From Verticiella sediminum (GTDB taxonomy: Bacteria > Pseudomonadota > Gammaproteobacteria > Burkholderiales > Burkholderiaceae_B): a DNA stretch of 64,000 bases. Positions 2,930-11,676 of this stretch are shown here, piece by piece; position 1 is the first letter of the stretch, and the number at the start of each line of letters is the position of its first letter. A model generated the notes under the pieces. That model made no database searches. It was not told where the DNA came from and saw only the letters and a program-made list of their open reading frames with translations. Made by a program: the position numbers and the translations under genes. The stretch spans positions 124,001 to 188,000 of the forward strand of contig NZ_VLTJ01000022.1 of NCBI RefSeq assembly GCF_007558815.1. Direction: 5' to 3'.

Positions 2930-3796
2930 TCAGGCCGGCGCCTGCGCGCGCACGTGCCCCAGCGCCAGGGACAGCGCATGCGCCGCCTGCGTGACGGCGG
3001 GCTCGAAGGCGCGCATGGCCTTCTGGGTGAGGCGGTCCGCCGGGCCCGAGATGCCGAGCGCCGCGACCACCTCGCCGCGCGCATCGAACACCGGCGCCGC
3101 CAGGCCGCACACGCTGGCGCGCCACTCGCCCCGGTTCACCGCGTAACCCTGCTGCCGGACGCGACGCAGTTCGGCTTCGAGTTCCTGCGGATCGACGATG
3201 GTGCGCGGCGTGTACGGCGCCATGGCGGCGCTGGCCTCGGCCACCCGGGCCGCCTCGGCATACGCCAGCAATACCTTGCCGGTGGCGACGCAACCCGCCG
3301 GCGCGCGCCCGCCGACGCGCGAGTACGCACGCACCGGCTGAGGGCTGTCGATCTTGTCGACGTAGAGCACGTCGATGCCGTCGAGGATGGAAAGATGCAC
3401 CGTCTCCGACGTGGCATCGGCCAGCTCGCGCAGGAAGGGCGCGGCGACCTGGCGCAGATCCAGGCGATCGGCGACCCGCATGCCGACCTCCCAGATGCGC
3501 AGGCTGCAGGCGTAGCGGCCCTGCGCCTCGCGCACCCAGCCCAGATCGCACAGCATGCGCAGCAGGCGGTGCACACCGCTCTTGCCCATGCCCAGCTCGC
3601 GCGCGAGTTCGGTGACGCCCATGGGAGCGTCGGCGCGCGCGAGCGCCTCGAGGATGGCCAGGCCCTTGGGCAGCGAGCCGACGCCGGGAGCATCGGGTAC
3701 GGGATCGACGGCGGCTGAAGCGGAGGAGACCAGGGTCACGGGTAGGCCGGAGGCGGTTGCGGAGGACTTGATGATACCGGAAGCACGCATTACCAT
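2930..3796 (-). CDS. IclR-family transcriptional regulator
   Basis: The 288-residue protein has a winged-helix N-terminal DNA-binding domain (about residues 41-100: SLPKGLAILEALA, then MGVTELARELGMGKSGVHRLLRML) and an IclR effector domain (about 115-285). It diverges from the Bug-CoA-transferase operon across a 71-nt AT-rich gap, the classic layout of an IclR regulator controlling its neighbour. The start used is the ATG at 3796; a second in-frame ATG two codons later (3790) is equally possible. About 25 residues before the winged helix look disordered. The ligand is unknown, probably the operon substrate or its CoA ester. Confidence 0.92.
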   Translation of the reverse strand: MVMRASGIIKSSATASGLPVTLVSSASAAVDPVPDAPGVGSLPKGLAILEALARADAPMGVTELARELGMGKSGVHRLLRMLCDLGWVREAQGRYACSLRIWEVGMRVADRLDLRQVAAPFLRELADATSETVHLSILDGIDVLYVDKIDSPQPVRAYSRVGGRAPAGCVATGKVLLAYAEAARVAEASAAMAPYTPRTIVDPQELEAELRRVRQQGYAVNRGEWRASVCGLAAPVFDARGEVVAALGISGPADRLTQKAMRAFEPAVTQAAHALSLALGHVRAQAPA

Positions 3797-3867
3797 ATAT
3801 CCAAATATTATGAACGCCGTACTAATAATTAGAACATAATCGAGCCCCCACAGGAGGAGTCCAGACC
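3797..3867. promoter_or_regulatory. Divergent promoter/operator region between IclR regulator and Bug operon
   Basis: This 71-nt gap is strikingly AT-rich in a very GC-rich window. It contains the odd palindrome CTAATAATTAG at 3822-3832 and other A/T blocks (ATATCCAAATATTATG from 3797) that could hold -10 elements for both directions. AGGAGG at 3852-3857 is the ribosome-binding site of the Bug gene at 3868. IclR proteins usually bind such short palindromes between divergent genes. The operator assignment is inference. Confidence 0.6.
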
Positions 3868-4893
3868 ATGCCGTTTTCGCTCACCTTGCTACGCAATGCC
3901 GCACGCGGCTGCACCCGGCGCGTCGCCGCTTCGTTGCTCCTGGGCGGCGCCCTGGTCTGCGCGATGCCGGCGGCGCTCCAGGCCGCGCAGCCGTCCCCGG
4001 CCAACTGGCCCGAGCGCCCGATCACTTTCATCGTGCCCTTCCCGCCGGGAGGCAACAGCGACAACCTCGGGCGCATCATGGCCGAGCAACTGCGCATCAA
4101 GCTGGGCGTCCCGGTGATCGTGGAGAACCGGCCAGGCGGCACCACCTCGGTAGGCACGGAGGCGCTGGCGCGCGCCCAGCCGGATGGCTACACCCTGCTG
4201 CTGGGCGCGGCCACCGCCTTCACCGTGCTGCCGCACCTGCGCAAGCTGCCCTACGATCCCGAGCGCGACTTCACCTTCGCCGCCGGCATCGCCGACTATC
4301 TGCCGATCGTCACCGCGTCTCCCCAATTGGGCGTGCGCTCGCTGCAGGAACTCGTCGAGCTGGCCCGCCAGCGTCCCGGCGAGCTGAAGATCGGCTCGGC
4401 GGGCATCGCCTCGGCCGGCCACATCGCCAGCGAGATCATCAAGCGCGCGAGCGGCATCGACGTGCTGCACGTGCCCTACAAGGGTTCGGCCGAACTCATT
4501 TCCGCCCTGCAGGGCGGGCAGATCGACTTCTTCATCGACGGCGTGGGCCTGAACATGGCCCAGGACGGCCGGGGCGTGGCGCTGGCCACCTTCGCCGAGC
4601 GGCGCCACCCCATGCTGCCGGACGTGCCCAGCCTTCCCGAGGCGGGTATAAAAGAAGATCTGCCGCAGGGCGGTTGGGGCCTGGTGCTTCCCGCCGGCAC
4701 CGACCCGGCCATCGTCGCCAAGGTCGGCGCCGCCGCCAAGACCATCCTGGCGGACCCCGACACCATCGACCGGCTGCTGCGCGCCAGCGTCGTCGCCGAA
4801 TACATCGACCCCGCGCCCTATCGCGAGAACCTCGCCAAGGCCTACCGCTTCTATGGGGAGCTGATCCCGGCGGTCGGCATCGCCACGCAATAA
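3868..4893 (+). CDS. Bug/TctC-family periplasmic substrate-binding protein
   Basis: The 341-residue protein has an N-terminal signal peptide (a basic stretch to about residue 18, then a hydrophobic core ending near ALQAAQ). The mature protein opens with WPERPITFIVPFPPGGNSDN, the binding-loop signature of Bug receptors, and later carries VPYKGSAEL and LPDVPSLPEAG. Bug proteins bind carboxylates or similar small molecules in the periplasm. No TctA/TctB membrane genes are nearby, so transport may use distant subunits, or the protein may act as a sensor. It is the first gene of the CoA-transferase operon and likely binds the compound that operon degrades. Confidence 0.92.
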   Translation: MPFSLTLLRNAARGCTRRVAASLLLGGALVCAMPAALQAAQPSPANWPERPITFIVPFPPGGNSDNLGRIMAEQLRIKLGVPVIVENRPGGTTSVGTEALARAQPDGYTLLLGAATAFTVLPHLRKLPYDPERDFTFAAGIADYLPIVTASPQLGVRSLQELVELARQRPGELKIGSAGIASAGHIASEIIKRASGIDVLHVPYKGSAELISALQGGQIDFFIDGVGLNMAQDGRGVALATFAERRHPMLPDVPSLPEAGIKEDLPQGGWGLVLPAGTDPAIVAKVGAAAKTILADPDTIDRLLRASVVAEYIDPAPYRENLAKAYRFYGELIPAVGIATQ

Positions 4894-4915
4894 CCCTTCA
4901 CCCATCGGGAGTCCC

Positions 4916-6076
4916 ATGACCCAAAACCCGCTTCCCCTCGCCGGCGTCAAAGTCGTCGAAATCTGCCAGGTCGCCGCCGGCCCGTTCGCCGGCATGCTGC
5001 TCGCGGACTACGGCGCCGACGTCGTCAAGATCGAACCGCCCGAAGGCGATGCGCTGCGCCAGTGGCCGCCGCTGTCCGGCGCGGATGACGATCGCTACAG
5101 CGAGAACTACGCCTCGCTGAACCGGGGCAAGCGGTCGGTGGCGCTGAACCTGAAAGACCCTGCCCAGCTCGCCTATGCGCGCCAGCTCATCCTCGAGGCC
5201 GACGTGCTGGTCGAGAACAGCCGGCCCGGCGTGATGGAGCGGCTCGGGCTGTCGTGGGAGCACTTCGCCGAGCACAAGCCCGGCCTCGTCTACTGCTCGA
5301 TCTCCGCCTTCGGCCAGAGCGGGCCACGCTCGCGCGAGGGCGGCTTCGACGTCACCGTCCAGGCCGCGGCGGGCGTGATGAGCGTGACCGGCGAACCCGA
5401 GGGCGCGCCCGTCAAGTGCGGCGTGCCCATCTCCGACTTCACCGCGGGGCTGTACGCGGCGTTCTCGATCGCCGCCCTGCTCGCCCGCGTGCGCGCGGGC
5501 GGCGCCGGCGGACGCATCGACGTGCCGATGTTCGCCACCACCCTGGCCGTGGGTGCGCTGCAGACCAGCGAATACTTCGGCACCGGCCGCAATCCGCGCA
5601 AGCTCGGCTCGGCCCATCCGCGCAACGCGCCTTACCAGGCCTACGAAGCGAGCGACGGCTGGTTCGTCATCGCCGCGGGCAACAACCGGCTGTGGCAGGC
5701 CGTCTGCGATGCCGCCGACACCCGCCACCTGCTCGAGGACGAGCGCTTCACCACGCCCACGCTGCGCGCGACGCACCAGGTCGCGCTGCGCGACCTCCTG
5801 CAGCCGCGCTTTCGCGAGTTCACGGTGGCGCAATGGCTGGAGCGCTTCAATGCGGCGGGCGTACCCAACGCACCCATCAACGGCTATGCCGAGGCGCTGG
5901 CCGATCCGCAGGCCGAGCACCTGGGCCTGGTCCAGCCCATCACCCTGCCCAATGGCGTGGTCACCCGTACGGTCGGCTGCCCGGTGTGGCTGGACGGCGC
6001 GCCGGTGCCGGTGAAGAGCGACTACGCGCGCCTGGGCGAGCACACCCCGGCCGAGTTCCGGGCGGATGCGGCATGA
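4916..6076 (+). CDS. CaiB/BaiF-type (family III) CoA-transferase
   Basis: The 386-residue protein starts PLAGVKVVEICQVAAGPFAG, followed by LLADYGADVVKIE, the hallmark N-terminus of family III CoA-transferases. These enzymes swap CoA between carboxylic acids through an aspartyl-CoA thioester. The segment around GFDVTVQA (about residues 143-150) follows the usual order of the catalytic region, but I did not fix the catalytic Asp by alignment. ATG 4916 has GGGAG 9 nt upstream. The gene lies 22 nt after the Bug gene and 55 nt before the thiol dioxygenase, on the same strand. Its likely task is to load CoA on the product of the neighbouring dioxygenase or on the imported acid. Confidence 0.9.
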   Translation: MTQNPLPLAGVKVVEICQVAAGPFAGMLLADYGADVVKIEPPEGDALRQWPPLSGADDDRYSENYASLNRGKRSVALNLKDPAQLAYARQLILEADVLVENSRPGVMERLGLSWEHFAEHKPGLVYCSISAFGQSGPRSREGGFDVTVQAAAGVMSVTGEPEGAPVKCGVPISDFTAGLYAAFSIAALLARVRAGGAGGRIDVPMFATTLAVGALQTSEYFGTGRNPRKLGSAHPRNAPYQAYEASDGWFVIAAGNNRLWQAVCDAADTRHLLEDERFTTPTLRATHQVALRDLLQPRFREFTVAQWLERFNAAGVPNAPINGYAEALADPQAEHLGLVQPITLPNGVVTRTVGCPVWLDGAPVPVKSDYARLGEHTPAEFRADAA

Positions 6077-6131
6077 GCCGCGTCGCACCAGCCACCGACG
6101 GCCGCGCGCCCTTTTCTCCGAGAACGACTCC

Positions 6132-6761
6132 ATGACCACGCCTGACGACACCCTGGCGCCGCTGCGCGACTACGTCGCGCACATGACGCGCATCGCCGAC
6201 ACCCTGGGCACGCCCGCGGGGCTGGAACAGGCCCGCGCCCTGCTCGCCCAGCTCGTCGCGCGCGACGACTGGCTGCCCGAGGCCTTCGCCCAGCCCCATC
6301 CGCAGTTCTATCAGCAATACCTGCTGCACGGCGATCCGCTGGAACGCTTCAGCGTGGTCAGCTTCGTCTGGGGCCCGGGCCAGCGCACCCCCATCCACGA
6401 CCATTGCACCTGGGGCCTGATCGGCATGCTGCGCGGCGCCGAGCGCGGCCAGCGCTACACGGCGGCCGCCGACGGCAGCGTGCATCCCGACGGCGAGGCG
6501 GCCCTGCTCGAACCCGGCGACATCGAACTCGTGTCGCCGGCCACCGGCGACTGGCACGTGGTCGAGAACGCCTACGCCGACCGGGTCTCGATCAGCATCC
6601 ACGTCTACGGCGGCAACATCGGCGCCATCGCCCGCCACGTCTACGACCCCGCCGCCGGCGTGATCAAGCCCTTCGTATCCGGCTATTCCGCGCCGGTCTC
6701 GCCCAACCTGTGGGATCGCTCCGCCCAGGTGCGCGCCACGCTGGCCGGAGGCAAGGCATGA
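6132..6761 (+). CDS. Cysteine dioxygenase-family (Gln-type) thiol dioxygenase, likely 3-mercaptopropionate dioxygenase-like
   Basis: The 209-residue cupin belongs to the cysteine dioxygenase type I family, non-haem iron enzymes that oxidise a thiol to a sulfinate with O2. The iron ligands are visible: His89 and His91 in PGQRTPIHDHCTWG, and His142 in GDWHVVENAY. Where mammalian cysteine dioxygenase has Arg60 for the amino acid carboxylate, this protein has Gln62 in YQQYL. That is the known mark of bacterial enzymes that prefer 3-mercaptopropionate. My hand alignment of this region needs one gap. ATG 6132 opens directly at MTTPDDTLAPL; the upstream in-frame region overlaps the CoA-transferase. 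It overlaps the next gene by ATGA. The substrate is inferred. Confidence 0.85.
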   Translation: MTTPDDTLAPLRDYVAHMTRIADTLGTPAGLEQARALLAQLVARDDWLPEAFAQPHPQFYQQYLLHGDPLERFSVVSFVWGPGQRTPIHDHCTWGLIGMLRGAERGQRYTAAADGSVHPDGEAALLEPGDIELVSPATGDWHVVENAYADRVSISIHVYGGNIGAIARHVYDPAAGVIKPFVSGYSAPVSPNLWDRSAQVRATLAGGKA

Positions 6762-7537
6762 GCGCTTCCGCCCGGCCGCCCGAAGGAAGCGCGACGCTTC
6801 CCGAGGCCGCCTCCGGCCTGCACGTCGCGCACGAGGATGGCGTGGCCCGGCTCACGCTGGATCGCCCGCAGCTCGGCAACGCGCTCTCGGCCGAGCTGGT
6901 CGAGGCCCTGCTCGCCGCCCTGGCGCAGGCCGAAGCCACGGCCGGCATCCACACCGTGCTCCTGCGCGGCAACGGCCGCCACTTCTGCACGGGATTCGAC
7001 CTGTCCACGCTGGACGCGCAGAGCGACGGCGACCTGCTGCATCGTTTCGTGCGCGTCGAGACCCTGCTCGCGGCGCTGTGGCATTCGCCGCTGCGCACCG
7101 CCGTCCTGGCCCAGGGCCGAACCTGGGGCGCGGGCGCCGACCTCGTCGCCGCCTGCGAGAGCCGCGCCGCGGCGGCGCGCGCGAGCTTTCGCTTCCCGGG
7201 CGCGCGCTTCGGGCTGGTGCTGGGCACGCGGCGCCTGGCCGAACGCATCGGCGCCGACCGCGCGCGCCGATGGGTGCTCGACGGTCATGAGGCGCCGGCC
7301 GCCGAAGCATGCGCCGCCGGCCTCGTCGAGAGCGTGCTCGCCGAAGGCGACGAGGACGGCTGGTGCGCCGCGCTGCGCGAGTCTTCCGCCGTCGCGCCGG
7401 CAACCGCCGCGCGCCTGCGCATGGCCACGCGCCTGGACGCGCGCGACCACGACCTGGCGGCCCTGGTGCGCTCGGCCGCCGACCCCGGCCTGCGCGAGCG
7501 CATCCGCGCCTACGTAGCGCAGAACAAGAAGTCCTGA
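6758..7537 (+). CDS. Enoyl-CoA hydratase/isomerase-family protein
   Basis: The 259-residue crotonase-fold protein carries RLTLDRPQLGNALS near residue 30, the oxyanion-hole stretch GRHFCTGFDLS (about 74-84), and the second segment AQGRTWGAGADLVAACE (about 120-136). These proteins act on acyl-CoA thioesters as hydratases, isomerases, hydrolases or lyases. The usual hydratase glutamates are not evident: the second loop reads FPGARFGLVLG, with no Glu in the common position, so it may be an isomerase, thioesterase or lyase. It is translationally coupled to the dioxygenase gene (ATGA overlap), so its substrate is probably a CoA ester from the same pathway. Confidence 0.87.
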   Translation: MSASARPPEGSATLPEAASGLHVAHEDGVARLTLDRPQLGNALSAELVEALLAALAQAEATAGIHTVLLRGNGRHFCTGFDLSTLDAQSDGDLLHRFVRVETLLAALWHSPLRTAVLAQGRTWGAGADLVAACESRAAAARASFRFPGARFGLVLGTRRLAERIGADRARRWVLDGHEAPAAEACAAGLVESVLAEGDEDGWCAALRESSAVAPATAARLRMATRLDARDHDLAALVRSAADPGLRERIRAYVAQNKKS

Positions 7538-7569
7538 TCCATCACGGAACCCTTACGGAGGAACTCCTC

Positions 7570-9699
7570 GTGACAGCACAGTCCGGCCACTCGCCGCACG
7601 CCCTCGAAGCCCTGATGAACCCTCGTTCCGTCGCCGTCATCGGCGCGTCCGAGGACCAGACCAAGTTCGGCGGACGGCTCTATCGCATGCTGCTGCATCA
7701 TGGCTACGAGGGCACGGTCTATCCGATCAACCCCGGGCGCGACACCTTGTTCGGCCTCAAGACCCATGCCTCGCTGCAAGCGCTGCCGGCGGCGCCGGAC
7801 ATGGTGGTCCTCGCCCTGCCCCGCGACAAGGTCAAGGACCAGATCGCGGCGGCCGCGGAGCGCGGCGCCAAGGGCGGCATCATCATCACTGCCAAGTTCT
7901 CGGATGCCGGCCCGGAAGGCGCGGCGATCGAACGCGAGATCGTCGAGATCGCCCGCGCCAAGGGCATGCGCCTGATCGGCCCGAACTGCCTGGGCCTGAT
8001 CAGCGCGGCCAACCGGGTGGTGCTGTGCTCGTCGCCGGTGCTCGAGCGCAAGCCGCTGCCGCTGAGCCCGATCGGCCTGGTCAGCCAGAGCGGCGCGCTG
8101 ATGGCCACCCTGTTCGACCGCGCCTGGGATCGCGGCATTGGCTTCACGCACGGCGTGTCGGTGGGCAACCAGGCCGACATCGAGCTGTGCGATGTCGTGG
8201 ACTACCTGATCGCCGATCCGCGCACACGCGTGATCTGCACCTACATCGAAGGCATCAAGGACGCCGAGCGCTTCGTGCGCACGGCCCGCAAGGCGCGCGC
8301 CGCCGGCAAGCCGTGGCTGGCCGTCAAGGCCGGGCGCACCGAGGCCGGCAGCAAGGCGGCGTTCTCGCATACGGCGAGCATCGCCGGCAGCCATGACGTC
8401 CTGGCGGCGGTCTGCCGCGACGAAGGCGTGACTCTGCTGGACGATCCCAACGCCATGATCCTGCTCGCGGCCGAGCTGGCCCGCGTGGGCGAGCGGCCGG
8501 TACGCCGCATCGGCATCTTCACCACCTCGGGCGGTGGCGGCGCCCTGGCCGCCGACGCGGTGTCCGCGCATGGCCTGGAACTGGCCCGCTTCACCGCCAC
8601 CACCGAGGCGGCCTTCGCCGACTGGTACAGCCCCGGCCAGGCGCAGAACCCGGTCGACGTCGGCGGGCGCAAGTCCGAGGCCAAGGCCGACCTGGCCCGC
8701 GCGACAGTGGCCGCGTTGCTGGACGACGCCAACACCGACGGCCTGCTCCTGCCGATCACCACCGCGCCCGACGTGCCCGGGCTGTGCGCGCAGATTGCCG
8801 ATGGCGTGCAGGGCGAGCGCGGCGGCAAGCCGGCCTTCGTCGTGATGGAGCCGGGCAAGGCGGGCGACGGCGGACGCGCCAAGCTGGTCGAAGGCGGCGT
8901 AACGTACACCGACACGCTCGGCGAGGCCGTGGAAGCCCTCACCGCCTGGGCCACGCGTGCGCCGGCCGCCGATGCGGCCCAGGCGCCGGCGCGTCCCGGC
9001 GACATACCGGGGCAGGCGCCGGCGGCCGCCGCCACGCTCAACGAGTCCGACAGCAAGGCCCTGCTCGCACAGTACGGCGTGCCGGTGGGCGCCGACCTGA
9101 CCGCGGCCAGCGTCGAGCAGGCGGTGCAGCATGCGCGCTCGCTGGGCTATCCGGTCGTCATGAAGATCGTGTCGCCGGACGTGGTGCACAAGAGCGACGC
9201 CGGCGGCGTGCGCCTGGACATCCAGGACGACGAGGCGGTGGCCGCTGCCTGGCGGCGCATCCACGACGACGTGCGCAAGGCCGTGCCGCAGGCGCGCATC
9301 GACGGCATCTCGATCCAGAACCAGGCGCGCGGCAAGCTCGAACTCATCGTCGGCGCGCGCCGCGACCCGCAGTTCGGCCCGGTGGTCGTGGTCGGCGCGG
9401 GCGGCATTTTGGTGGAACTGCTGCCCACGCCGCTGATCCTGCGCGCGCCGGCCGCGCCGGAGGCCGTCAAGCGGCTGCTGCAGACCCTGCCGGTCTGGCC
9501 GATCCTGGCCGGCTATCGGGGCACGCCGCTCGCCGTCGACGCCGTGGTCGACGCCATCGTGCGCGCGAGCTGGCTCGCCGCCGACCTGGGCAGCCAGGAT
9601 TTCGAGTTCGACATCAACCCGCTCATCGTCGCCGCCGACCGTTGCGTCGCGGTCGATGCGCGCATCCGCATCGGCAACACCGAGGAGACATCCGCATGA
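7570..9699 (+). CDS. ADP-forming acyl-CoA synthetase (acetate--CoA ligase/FerA family)
   Basis: The 709-residue protein has the three parts of nucleoside diphosphate-forming acyl-CoA synthetases: a CoA-binding Rossmann domain (about 10-140, with LMNPRSVAVIGASEDQTKFG), two succinyl-CoA-ligase-like flavodoxin domains (about 150-460), and a C-terminal ATP-grasp domain (about 490-700, LNESDSKALLAQYGVP). His267 in FSHTASIAGS is the expected phospho-histidine. The start is GTG 7570, with GGAGG 8 nt upstream; ATG 7615 is a possible alternative. It activates an acid to its CoA thioester using ATP. Feruloyl-CoA synthetase FerA belongs to the same family, so an aromatic substrate cannot be excluded. 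It overlaps the next hydratase gene by ATGA. Confidence 0.9.
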   Translation: MTAQSGHSPHALEALMNPRSVAVIGASEDQTKFGGRLYRMLLHHGYEGTVYPINPGRDTLFGLKTHASLQALPAAPDMVVLALPRDKVKDQIAAAAERGAKGGIIITAKFSDAGPEGAAIEREIVEIARAKGMRLIGPNCLGLISAANRVVLCSSPVLERKPLPLSPIGLVSQSGALMATLFDRAWDRGIGFTHGVSVGNQADIELCDVVDYLIADPRTRVICTYIEGIKDAERFVRTARKARAAGKPWLAVKAGRTEAGSKAAFSHTASIAGSHDVLAAVCRDEGVTLLDDPNAMILLAAELARVGERPVRRIGIFTTSGGGGALAADAVSAHGLELARFTATTEAAFADWYSPGQAQNPVDVGGRKSEAKADLARATVAALLDDANTDGLLLPITTAPDVPGLCAQIADGVQGERGGKPAFVVMEPGKAGDGGRAKLVEGGVTYTDTLGEAVEALTAWATRAPAADAAQAPARPGDIPGQAPAAAATLNESDSKALLAQYGVPVGADLTAASVEQAVQHARSLGYPVVMKIVSPDVVHKSDAGGVRLDIQDDEAVAAAWRRIHDDVRKAVPQARIDGISIQNQARGKLELIVGARRDPQFGPVVVVGAGGILVELLPTPLILRAPAAPEAVKRLLQTLPVWPILAGYRGTPLAVDAVVDAIVRASWLAADLGSQDFEFDINPLIVAADRCVAVDARIRIGNTEETSA

Positions 9700-10451
9700 C
9701 TCAAGCCTACGAACGCATCACCGTCGCCGACAACGACGACGGCACCACGCTCATCACGATCAACCGCGCCGAGCGGCGCAACGCCATCTGCCGGCTCACG
9801 GCGATCGAACTGCAGCAGGCGTTCGCGGCCTTCGACGCCAACGACGCGCAGCGCGTAGCCGTCATCACCGGGGCGGGCGACGAAGCCTTCTCGGGCGGCG
9901 CCGACGTGACCGACCTGCCCGAACTCTGGCGCTGCATCCCCACGGTCGGGATCACCACCGAGAAGCCCGTGATCTGCGCCACCGCCGGCTGGTGCGTGGG
10001 CGGCGCCCTGGTCCTCGCCATGATGGCCGACCTCATCGTCGCCGCGGACAACGCCAAGTTCTCCTATCCCGAAGCGCGGCTGGGCTTCACGGGCGGCATG
10101 ATCGCCGAGCTGGCCAACCGCATTCCGCACCATGCCGCGATGGACCTGATCCTGATCGGCCGCCCGATCGACGCGCAGCGCGCCTACCAGCTCGGCTTCG
10201 TCAACGAGGTCGTGCCCAAGGGCGAGCAGGTGCGCGCGGCGCTCGCCATGGCCGCCGAGCTGGCGGCCTCCTCGCCGCTGGTGCTGCGCACGCTCAAGCG
10301 CTTCGTCAACGAGAGCGTCATGACCGCCGGGCCCTCCGTGCTCGCCGCGCGCACGCAGCGCGACCTGGGGCGGGTGCGCGAAAGCGAGGACGCCAAGGAA
10401 GGCGTCGCCGCCTTCCGCGAGAAGCGCAAGCCGCGCTACCAGGGCCGCTGA
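9696..10451 (+). CDS. Enoyl-CoA hydratase/isomerase-family protein
   Basis: The 251-residue crotonase-fold protein has LITINRAERRNAICRLT near residue 20, DEAFSGGADVTDL in the first oxyanion segment and ATAGWCVGGALVLAMMADLIVAA in the second, ending with the usual helical trimerisation tail. It is the last gene of a coupled set (ATGA overlap with the synthetase). Pairing of an ADP-forming acyl-CoA synthetase with a crotonase recalls FerA/FerB of hydroxycinnamate degradation, though the rest of the operon points to a thiol or small acid. The reaction cannot be fixed from sequence. Confidence 0.88.
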   Translation: MTQAYERITVADNDDGTTLITINRAERRNAICRLTAIELQQAFAAFDANDAQRVAVITGAGDEAFSGGADVTDLPELWRCIPTVGITTEKPVICATAGWCVGGALVLAMMADLIVAADNAKFSYPEARLGFTGGMIAELANRIPHHAAMDLILIGRPIDAQRAYQLGFVNEVVPKGEQVRAALAMAAELAASSPLVLRTLKRFVNESVMTAGPSVLAARTQRDLGRVRESEDAKEGVAAFREKRKPRYQGR

Positions 10452-10680: not shown

Positions 10681-11676
10681 ATGTACCCGAACCACTCCCC
10701 CCGCCTGCTCCGCCGCCGACTGCTCCGGACCCTGTTCGCCCTGCCGCTGGGGCTCGCCTGCGCAGCCCATGGGCCGGCCCTGGCCGCGCAGGACTGGCCG
10801 GCCAAGCCGATCACGCTGATCGTGCCCTACCCGGCCGGCGGCAACTCCGACACGATCGCGCGGCTGGTCGCCGAGAACCTGCGCAAGCAGCTCGGCACGG
10901 ACATCATCGTCGAGAACAAGGGCGGCGCCGGCGCGACCATCGGGGCGCGCGCCGCCGCCTCCGCCGCGCCAGACGGCTACACGCTGCTGCTCGCGCCGAC
11001 CGCGGTGATGGCCATCACGCCGCATCTGCGCACGGTGCCCTACAAGCCGTCGGAGTTCGCGCCCGTGGCCAACGTCTCGGGCAGCTACGGCATCGTCGCC
11101 GCGCGCAAGGACCTGCCGGCCAACACGATGGACGAACTGGTCGAGCTGGCGAAATCCCAGCCGGGCAAGCTCACCTTCGGCTCGGCCGGTCCGGCCACCG
11201 CCACCCACCTGGCCGGCGTCATGGTGGCCCGCGCCGCCGGCATCGATCTCATGCACGTACCCTACAAGGGCTCGATCGAAGCGCTCAACGACCTGCTGGG
11301 CGGGCAGATCGATCTCATCTTCGATCCGGTCGCCCTGTCCCAGGTCAAGGCGGGCAAGTTGAAGGCGCTCGCCAGCAGCAGCCAGCGCCGCAACCCGGAG
11401 CTGCCGGACGTGTCCACCCTCAAGGAACTGGGCTACGACGTCGACACGCGTAGCTGGTTCGGGCTCTTCGTGCCGGCGGGCACGCCCGAGCCCGTCATCG
11501 ACAAGATCGCCACCGGCCTGGAAGCCGCCCTCGCGCAGCCGGAGATCACCGACGTGATGCTGAAGTTCAGCCAGTTCCCGCAGTTCCAGGGGCCGGAGGC
11601 GTTCGCCCGCCGCATCGCCGACGACGACGCCTTCTTCAAGAGGCTGATCACCGACGAGGGCATCAAGGTCGAGTAA
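10681..11676 (+). CDS. Bug/TctC-family periplasmic substrate-binding protein
   Basis: The 331-residue protein has a signal peptide (arginine-rich RRRLLRTLFALPLGLACAAH, cleavage near LAAQ). The mature part starts DWPAKPITLIVPYPAGGNSD and contains VPYKGSIEALNDLLGGQID and LPDVSTLKELGYD, all typical of Bug receptors. A 229-nt gap with a palindromic repeat separates it from the operon upstream, so it may have its own promoter, yet orientation and context make it a second receptor for the same pathway. No tctA or tctB gene is present. It is convergent with gdhA. Confidence 0.92.
   Translation: MYPNHSPRLLRRRLLRTLFALPLGLACAAHGPALAAQDWPAKPITLIVPYPAGGNSDTIARLVAENLRKQLGTDIIVENKGGAGATIGARAAASAAPDGYTLLLAPTAVMAITPHLRTVPYKPSEFAPVANVSGSYGIVAARKDLPANTMDELVELAKSQPGKLTFGSAGPATATHLAGVMVARAAGIDLMHVPYKGSIEALNDLLGGQIDLIFDPVALSQVKAGKLKALASSSQRRNPELPDVSTLKELGYDVDTRSWFGLFVPAGTPEPVIDKIATGLEAALAQPEITDVMLKFSQFPQFQGPEAFARRIADDDAFFKRLITDEGIKVE

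Follow-up and report, generated by a model that had tools for sequence, protein, structure and literature searches.

A conserved thiol dioxygenase-crotonase gene set in Verticiella sediminum: a variant of the 3-mercaptopropionate pathway in which a crotonase seems to take the place of the desulfinase

The closest described systems are the Mdo-Act/SucCD-Acd pathways of Advenella mimigardefordensis DPN7 and Variovorax paradoxus TBEA6, in which 3-mercaptopropionate is converted to 3-sulfinopropionate, then to a coenzyme A (CoA) ester, and finally to propionyl-CoA and sulfite. We analyzed a stretch of 64,000 nucleotides (the window) from Verticiella sediminum (GCF_007558815.1, contig NZ_VLTJ01000022.1; assembly 99.19% complete, 46 contigs) carrying an operon that shares several of these components: a dioxygenase (MDO) that belongs to the Mdo family and shares its active site, a family III CoA-transferase (COAT), and nearby TctC/Bug receptors. 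A TctC receptor is reported to be required for thiodipropionate growth in V. paradoxus TBEA6 (PMC8102459). However, the operon, which is locus L074 in our numbering of loci (L) and genomes (G), contains two non-canonical crotonases (ECH1 and ECH2) and an ADP-forming acyl-CoA synthetase (ACS) instead of the desulfinase Acd, and it lies beside an IclR gene, whereas Acd loci have a LysR gene. The gene set is conserved and appears to be a variant of the known pathway in which a crotonase seems to take the desulfinase's place. The features are listed below by window position.

2930..3796, - strand: IclR-family protein, the probable regulator, divergent from the operon (Pfam IclR_C 3.7e-51, HTH_IclR 1.1e-15)
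3868..4893, + strand: Bug/TctC periplasmic binding receptor, probably for substrate uptake (Pfam TctC 6.2e-52)
4916..6076, + strand: COAT, family III CoA-transferase with conserved Asp174 (Pfam CoA_transf_3 2.4e-116)
6132..6761, + strand: MDO, predicted Gln-type 3-mercaptopropionate dioxygenase (PDB matches and active-site residues)
6758..7537, + strand: ECH1, non-canonical crotonase (Pfam ECH_1 3e-27; PDB 3isa 2.4e-46)
7570..9699, + strand: ACS, ADP-forming acyl-CoA synthetase with a GTG start and conserved His267 (Pfam CoA-binding, Succ_CoA_lig, and ATP-grasp, scanned from 7534)
9696..10451, + strand: ECH2, crotonase (Pfam ECH_1 2.4e-49)
10681..11676, + strand: second Bug/TctC receptor, 229 bases downstream of ech2 and possibly in the unit (Pfam TctC 1.9e-67)

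The operon is real: the six genes on one strand, with the families and coordinates assigned in an earlier sequence-only reading, were borne out by reading frames and family searches. That reading counted three ATGA overlaps, of which two are present (mdo/ech1 and acs/ech2); ech1 and acs are separated by 32 bases, and a GGAGGAA stretch precedes the acs GTG.

The central observation is that MDO and ECH1 form a conserved core across genomes. Two samples were searched: 151 genomes of the family (ECH1 cutoff, E<=1e-30) and 300 genomes of the order, ten of them listed as belonging to the window's own family (ECH1, E<=1e-35; MDO, E<=1e-45). In the family, ECH1 was found in 71 genomes at 75 places, with a strong MDO match within 12 kb at 44, within 6.5 kb at 36, and within 1.5 kb at 20. 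Fewer than one coincidence within 12 kb would be expected by chance, as a rough estimate rather than a shuffled control, and the grouping is thus more than chance. The order sample gave a similar picture: 22 of its 36 ECH1 genes lay within 12 kb of MDO, 18 of them within 1.5 kb, and 17 of the 22 came from outside the own family, with nine families represented. Linkage counts of this kind are inflated by shared descent; gene order nonetheless varies between the loci. Both genes were present in 64 family genomes, MDO alone in 13, ECH1 alone in 7, and neither in 67, while the order sample contained ECH1 in 36 genomes, MDO in 53, and both in 33. ECH1 depends on MDO more than MDO depends on ECH1, with 3/36 ECH1 genomes lacking MDO and 20/53 MDO genomes lacking ECH1 in the order sample; the difference is weaker in the family (7/71 versus 13/77). 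The smallest units are MDO-ECH1 pairs without COAT, ACS, or ECH2 matches in the fetched stretch (L249, L252, L258, and L259), and coat-mdo-ech1 was found in two genomes of 1.6 to 1.8 Mb (L247 and L248). We found no description of an MDO-crotonase unit among the titles and abstract openings listed in searches of the open-license literature.

The published last step was, as far as our searches see, missing from most of the MDO carriers. One neighbor of MDO at locus L070 is, or very nearly is, AcdDPN7 (E 4.8e-268 to PDB 5af7 over all 401 residues), and the Acd proteins of three other family genomes were 70 to 81% identical to it. When AcdDPN7 was compared with the V. sediminum genome, with all 99 candidates scored, 85 matches were obtained, the best of them only 35% identical, and an Acd profile gave no match there at E<=1e-140. 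Thus, the earlier statement that the operon has no acyl-CoA dehydrogenase-type desulfinase holds across the whole assembly. The profile search, which scored the top 12 candidates per family genome and the top 6 per order genome, detected Acd in 6/151 family genomes, compared with strong MDO matches in 77/151, and in 2/300 order-sample genomes, compared with MDO in 53/300. One of these two (G250) has MDO without ECH1, and the other (G388) has neither at the thresholds used. In the same search, Acd went undetected in 59 of the 64 family genomes carrying both MDO and ECH1 and in all 33 such genomes in the order sample; hence, if ECH1 is set aside, no known route removes the sulfinate in these genomes. 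The genome that carries L070 (G149, also the source of L058) has a second MDO beside an AMP ligase, an ECH2-type crotonase, and AcuI, in a cluster that also includes an enolase-superfamily protein, an AhpD-type protein, and an IclR gene.

An MDO tree, obtained from a brief search and containing several long branches, showed the COAT-ECH1 contexts dispersed (15 changes for context A), whereas the Acd-linked MDOs nearly formed a single group (2 changes) and the window's MDO lay elsewhere. The contexts were taken from tblastn maps, as the gene caller missed MDO in 8/60 loci, one of which (L073) has only a second, distant homologue. The acd context (20/89) is inflated, most of its members having come from the search for Acd itself, and L135 was assigned to context A with acd more than 9 kb from mdo.

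The sequence of MDO points to the 3-mercaptopropionate type. It matched the solved structures 4qma, 3uss, 4wvz, and 6xb9 with E values from 8.6e-74 to 8.3e-65, compared with 8e-10 for the mercaptosuccinate dioxygenase 8vni and 0.022 or weaker for cysteine dioxygenase type 1. All four residues named in the sequence-only reading (Q62, H89, H91, and H142) are present, so that the enzyme has three His iron ligands and Gln62 in place of the arginine of cysteine dioxygenase, and it also carries the triad S155/H157/Y159 and R168. Each of these eight residues was 100% conserved, where the letter was present, in 89 MDO rows including the window's copy (94 before removal of duplicates and of rows below 180 bits). 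In the Azotobacter enzyme, R168 is described as holding the carboxylate of 3-mercaptopropionate (PMC8050391). Because of the structure matches and the invariance of R168, a beta-mercapto carboxylate is the likely substrate of MDO. A second thiol dioxygenase homologue is encoded elsewhere in the V. sediminum genome (contig 34, L073:9585-10229; CDO_I 1.2e-10, 37% identical to MDO over the match), adjoining a TctA transporter gene and lying roughly 4 kb from a gene of the TauE family. In other genomes, a rhodanese-domain protein family is encoded directly downstream of MDO (L057, L060, and L088, with four domains in L088, the one tested). Genes of the Lyase_1 family (fumarase/adenylosuccinate-lyase superfamily) occur near MDO in L053, L059, L072, L082, L083, and L235; the L072 lyase is similar to the XcbD model, below its cutoff, and lyases of this kind might free a thiol acid from a compound of the S-succinyl type.

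The crotonase fold of ECH1 and ECH2 is evident in their sequences, and both depart from ordinary hydratases at the active site. In ECH1, aligned to an ordinary hydratase for its register, Asp128 and Gly148 occupy the places of rat Glu144 and Glu164, and both were 100% conserved in 67 rows, the own copy included; R96, R136, and R248 were invariant in these rows and R159 was 99% conserved. Its closest solved relative is 3ISA (E 2.4e-46; 5.5e-78 for the ECH1 of genome G131), a putative enoyl-CoA hydratase/isomerase whose entry name assigns no function. In ECH2, for which the register came from its own structure-match alignment, Val106 occupies the place of the first catalytic Glu, and Glu126 is kept at the second. 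Conservation was examined in 11 rows of at least 250 bits, the window's copy included, and then in all 25 rows other than the window's (L067 and L157 being one locus): 24 of the 25 have Glu126 without the first Glu, and the exception, the 35% identical protein of L225, carries the first Glu as canonical enzymes do. Hydroxycinnamoyl-CoA hydratase-lyase likewise has the second Glu alone, a point in favor of a hydroxycinnamate role. However, that enzyme (2vsu) ranked far down for ECH2, at 1.9e-21 compared with 2.5e-37 for the best match, and the alternative raised in the sequence-only reading, that ACS and ECH2 are a FerA/FerB pair acting on hydroxycinnamates, found no support in this comparison, which covered ECH2 and not FerA. 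Acryloyl-CoA hydratase is reported to be inactive when either Glu is changed to Ala (PMC5651017). The two catalytic glutamates of AcuK/AcuH or of ordinary enoyl-CoA hydratase were found in neither ECH1 (Asp/Gly) nor ECH2 (Val/Glu), so neither is expected to be a simple hydratase, and plain acrylate hydration was rejected.

The transferase and the synthetase separate the operon further from the Acd systems. Asp174 of COAT was 100% conserved in 70 rows, the window's copy included (81 before removal of rows below 350 bits). Identity to the best transferase match was 35 to 37% at Acd loci and 57 to 79% at ECH1-linked loci, and the identities fell into two separate groups, with 11 rows at 35 to 39% and 70 rows at 50% or more. 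By these identities, COAT belongs to an ECH1-linked clade outside the Act clade. Thus, of the first two Advenella steps that the operon had been thought to keep, the MDO step is retained, but the transferase is not the Act of that route. The nearest solved relatives of ACS are 4-hydroxybutyrate- and 3-hydroxypropionate-CoA ligases (313 and 291 bits). DddX, a dimethylsulfoniopropionate lyase of the ADP-forming acyl-CoA synthetase superfamily that is reported to yield acryloyl-CoA (PMC8163506), offers a precedent in the same superfamily for action on a sulfur-bearing propionate, but it scored lower, at 229 bits; the alignment spans DddX residues 49-419 and 522-728, and the catalytic base Glu432 falls between these stretches.

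The complete set recurs well beyond V. sediminum. In L250, from another family, bug, coat, mdo, ech1, acs, ech2, and bug2 lie in the same order on one strand and are 54 to 72% identical to the window's, the upstream Bug being 57% and the post-ech2 Bug 58% identical. The order coat-mdo-ech1-acs-ech2 was also found in L238, L239, and L234, with a Bug gene after ech2 in L250, L239, and L234 but not in L238, while in L227 to L230 the set is divided into divergent ech1-coat-acuI and bug-acs-ech2-mdo groups. This conservation in other genera and families strengthens the earlier suggestion that two crotonases and a synthetase make up a variant route. An ACS-ECH2-type pair and MDO stand alongside COAT-ECH1 in all of these loci and in the window, and alongside Act-Acd once, in Candidimonas nitroreducens (L067, the same locus as L157), where the pair is 37% and 43% identical to the window's. 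A ligase or synthetase and an ECH2-type crotonase lie near MDO in 14 family genomes (contexts B, AB, C, and L067; W class excluded), all of which carry ECH1; this proves little, since ECH1 occurs in 64/77 MDO genomes anyway. AcuI genes were found beside coat-ech1 in L227 to L230 and L244 and in clusters with an AMP ligase, an ECH2-type crotonase, and MDO; the L227 AcuI passes the curated cutoff for NADPH acrylyl-CoA reductase, and the V. sediminum genome has AcuI on another contig (61% identical). Acryloyl-CoA is therefore a likely intermediate. An IclR gene lies near many MDO/COAT/ECH1 loci; an IclR operator was sought in the 3797-3867 gap of the window, which yielded short repeats only.

Catabolism of a small thiol acid through sulfinate and CoA esters, as suggested in the sequence-only reading, remains the best frame. 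Our explanation of the whole, plausible but short of probable, is an operon for uptake and catabolism of a C3 organosulfur acid, which would be 3-mercaptopropionate itself or a thioether from which it is freed. The Bug receptors would import the acid, ACS would activate the thioether, and ECH2, which of the two glutamates retains just the one predicted to abstract the alpha proton, would eliminate the thiol to leave acryloyl-CoA, which AcuI, encoded elsewhere in the genome, would reduce to propionyl-CoA. MDO would oxidize the thiol to a 3-sulfinopropionate-type sulfinate, COAT would form the sulfinyl-CoA ester, and ECH1 would cleave the C-S bond of this ester, as Acd does in Advenella and Variovorax. 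Action of ECH1 on the CoA-esterified product of MDO is favored because ech1 tends to accompany mdo across genomes, because small mdo-ech1 and coat-mdo-ech1 units exist, and because Acd was not found. In its most specific form, possible but doubtful, ECH1 would be a flavin-free crotonase-fold desulfinase of 3-sulfinopropionyl-CoA (or perform an equivalent C-S cleavage), a nonhomologous replacement of Acd that would give the MDO product its most frequent route across Alcaligenaceae and related families of Burkholderiales, small streamlined genomes among them. The likeness to the TBEA6 thiodipropionate cluster (mdo, act, acdA, ech-20, ech-30, and VPARA_05510) is one of gene content: both have MDO beside a CoA-transferase and several crotonases, but the TBEA6 cluster has acdA, act, and acyl-CoA dehydrogenases. 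Crotonases of TBEA6 are reported to be needed before 3-mercaptopropionate appears in thiodipropionate breakdown (PMC6370202), and by analogy the window's ACS and ECH2 are a candidate for this thioether-cleavage role.

The strongest alternative, which we consider rather unlikely, places COAT and ECH1 before MDO. COAT would load a thioether acid such as 3,3'-thiodipropionate and ECH1 would eliminate 3-mercaptopropionate, leaving acryloyl-CoA for AcuI, while ACS would activate a C3 acid and 3-sulfinopropionate would be handled by SucCD and an unrecognized enzyme or excreted. Genetic data from TBEA6 fit this order, as deletion of ech-20 or ech-30 is described as stopping growth on thiodipropionate with growth on 3-sulfinopropionate unaffected, VPARA_05510 as aiding thiodipropionate growth, and thiodipropionyl-CoA as stabilizing Ech-20 (PMC6370202). 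In L227, one strand carries acuI, coat, and ech1 as a group, and the same holds for L228 to L230 and L244. L135 has both Act-Acd and COAT-ECH1, and a thiolate leaves better than a sulfinate. However, under this order no known route would remove the sulfinate in the majority of MDO genomes (Acd in 6/151), ECH1 has Gly at the place of the alpha-carbon base, and the transferase-free MDO-ECH1 units and the scarcity of ECH1 without MDO (3/36 and 7/71) fit a role downstream of MDO better.

Several further points weigh against ECH1 as a replacement for Acd downstream of MDO. Sulfinate is a poor leaving group; its direct beta-elimination by ECH1 is chemically unfavorable, and another mechanism may therefore be needed. 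Activity of ECH1 on any substrate is a prediction, and the roles given to ACS and ECH2 are drawn from gene context and residues. Five of the six family genomes with Acd also carry ECH1, and an anti-correlation between the two proved uninformative, as this fraction is about that expected under independence. In the L067 genome, a different contig (L046) carries COAT-ECH1 beside a second MDO; for this reason, and because the ACS-ECH2-type pair of L067 is only 37% and 43% identical to the window's, the seeming substitution of Act-Acd for COAT-ECH1 carries little weight. In Pseudorhodoferax soli (L135), act, acd, coat, ech1, and an MDO of the Acd group lie within about 12 kb, and both L067 and L135 weigh against simple replacement. 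A gene with 30% identity to AcuI comes after ech1 in L252, an arrangement that agrees with elimination to acryloyl-CoA under both readings. COAT-ECH1 was also found at a distance from MDO, in many cases accompanied by an AMP ligase and a GctAB-like (glutaconate-CoA-transferase-like) pair; MDO was absent from the fetched stretch of 13 loci that have all of these genes and make up a conserved unit of their own (L207, L208, L211, L212, L213, L216, L217, L219, L222, L225, L226, L245, and L246), and COAT-ECH1 may thus have a wider role. Finally, searches with PF03601 (two seeds), a family annotated elsewhere as a sulfate exporter, and TauE (six seeds) against 200 loci (L033-L092 and L127-L266) and the window gave sparse matches: PF03601 lay near ECH1 in L249 and L135 only, and TauE lay near MDO in L070 only, an Acd locus. 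Sulfite/sulfate exporters were thus uninformative as evidence.

An improbable alternative is that the substrate is a different beta-mercapto carboxylate, namely a substituted 3-mercaptopropionate that yields a spontaneously decaying sulfinate, with COAT, ECH1, ACS, and ECH2 handling the carbon skeleton. The sulfinosuccinate formed by mercaptosuccinate dioxygenase is reported to be unstable and to decay to succinate and sulfite (PMC5373536), and Lyase_1-family genes lie near several MDOs, but the window's operon has no such gene, and its MDO matched solved 3-mercaptopropionate dioxygenases at 8e-65 or better, compared with 8e-10 for 8vni. The least probable explanation is ordinary acyl catabolism, with COAT-ECH1 as an AcuN-AcuK-like acrylate pair, ACS-ECH2 as a FerA/FerB-like hydroxycinnamate or short-chain acyl pair, and MDO detoxifying thiols: AcuN is described as an acyl-CoA transferase and AcuK/AcuH as members of the enoyl-CoA hydratase family (PMC3338564, PMC5651017), and ACS is closest to hydroxyacyl-CoA ligases, but acryloyl-CoA hydration is reported to need both glutamates, the hydratase-lyase ranks low for ECH2, and few genomes have ECH1 but lack MDO.

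In these bacteria, 3-mercaptopropionate is described as being broken down via Acd, and the linkage of ECH1 to MDO offers a concrete, testable answer to the question of where the sulfinate goes in genomes of this kind. The recurrence of the pairing points to an undescribed way of cutting carbon-sulfur bonds. If ECH1 does perform the missing step, this would add C-S cleavage to the crotonase superfamily and provide a function for structure 3ISA, with a bearing on organosulfur turnover and on the use of 3-mercaptopropionate as a polythioester precursor.

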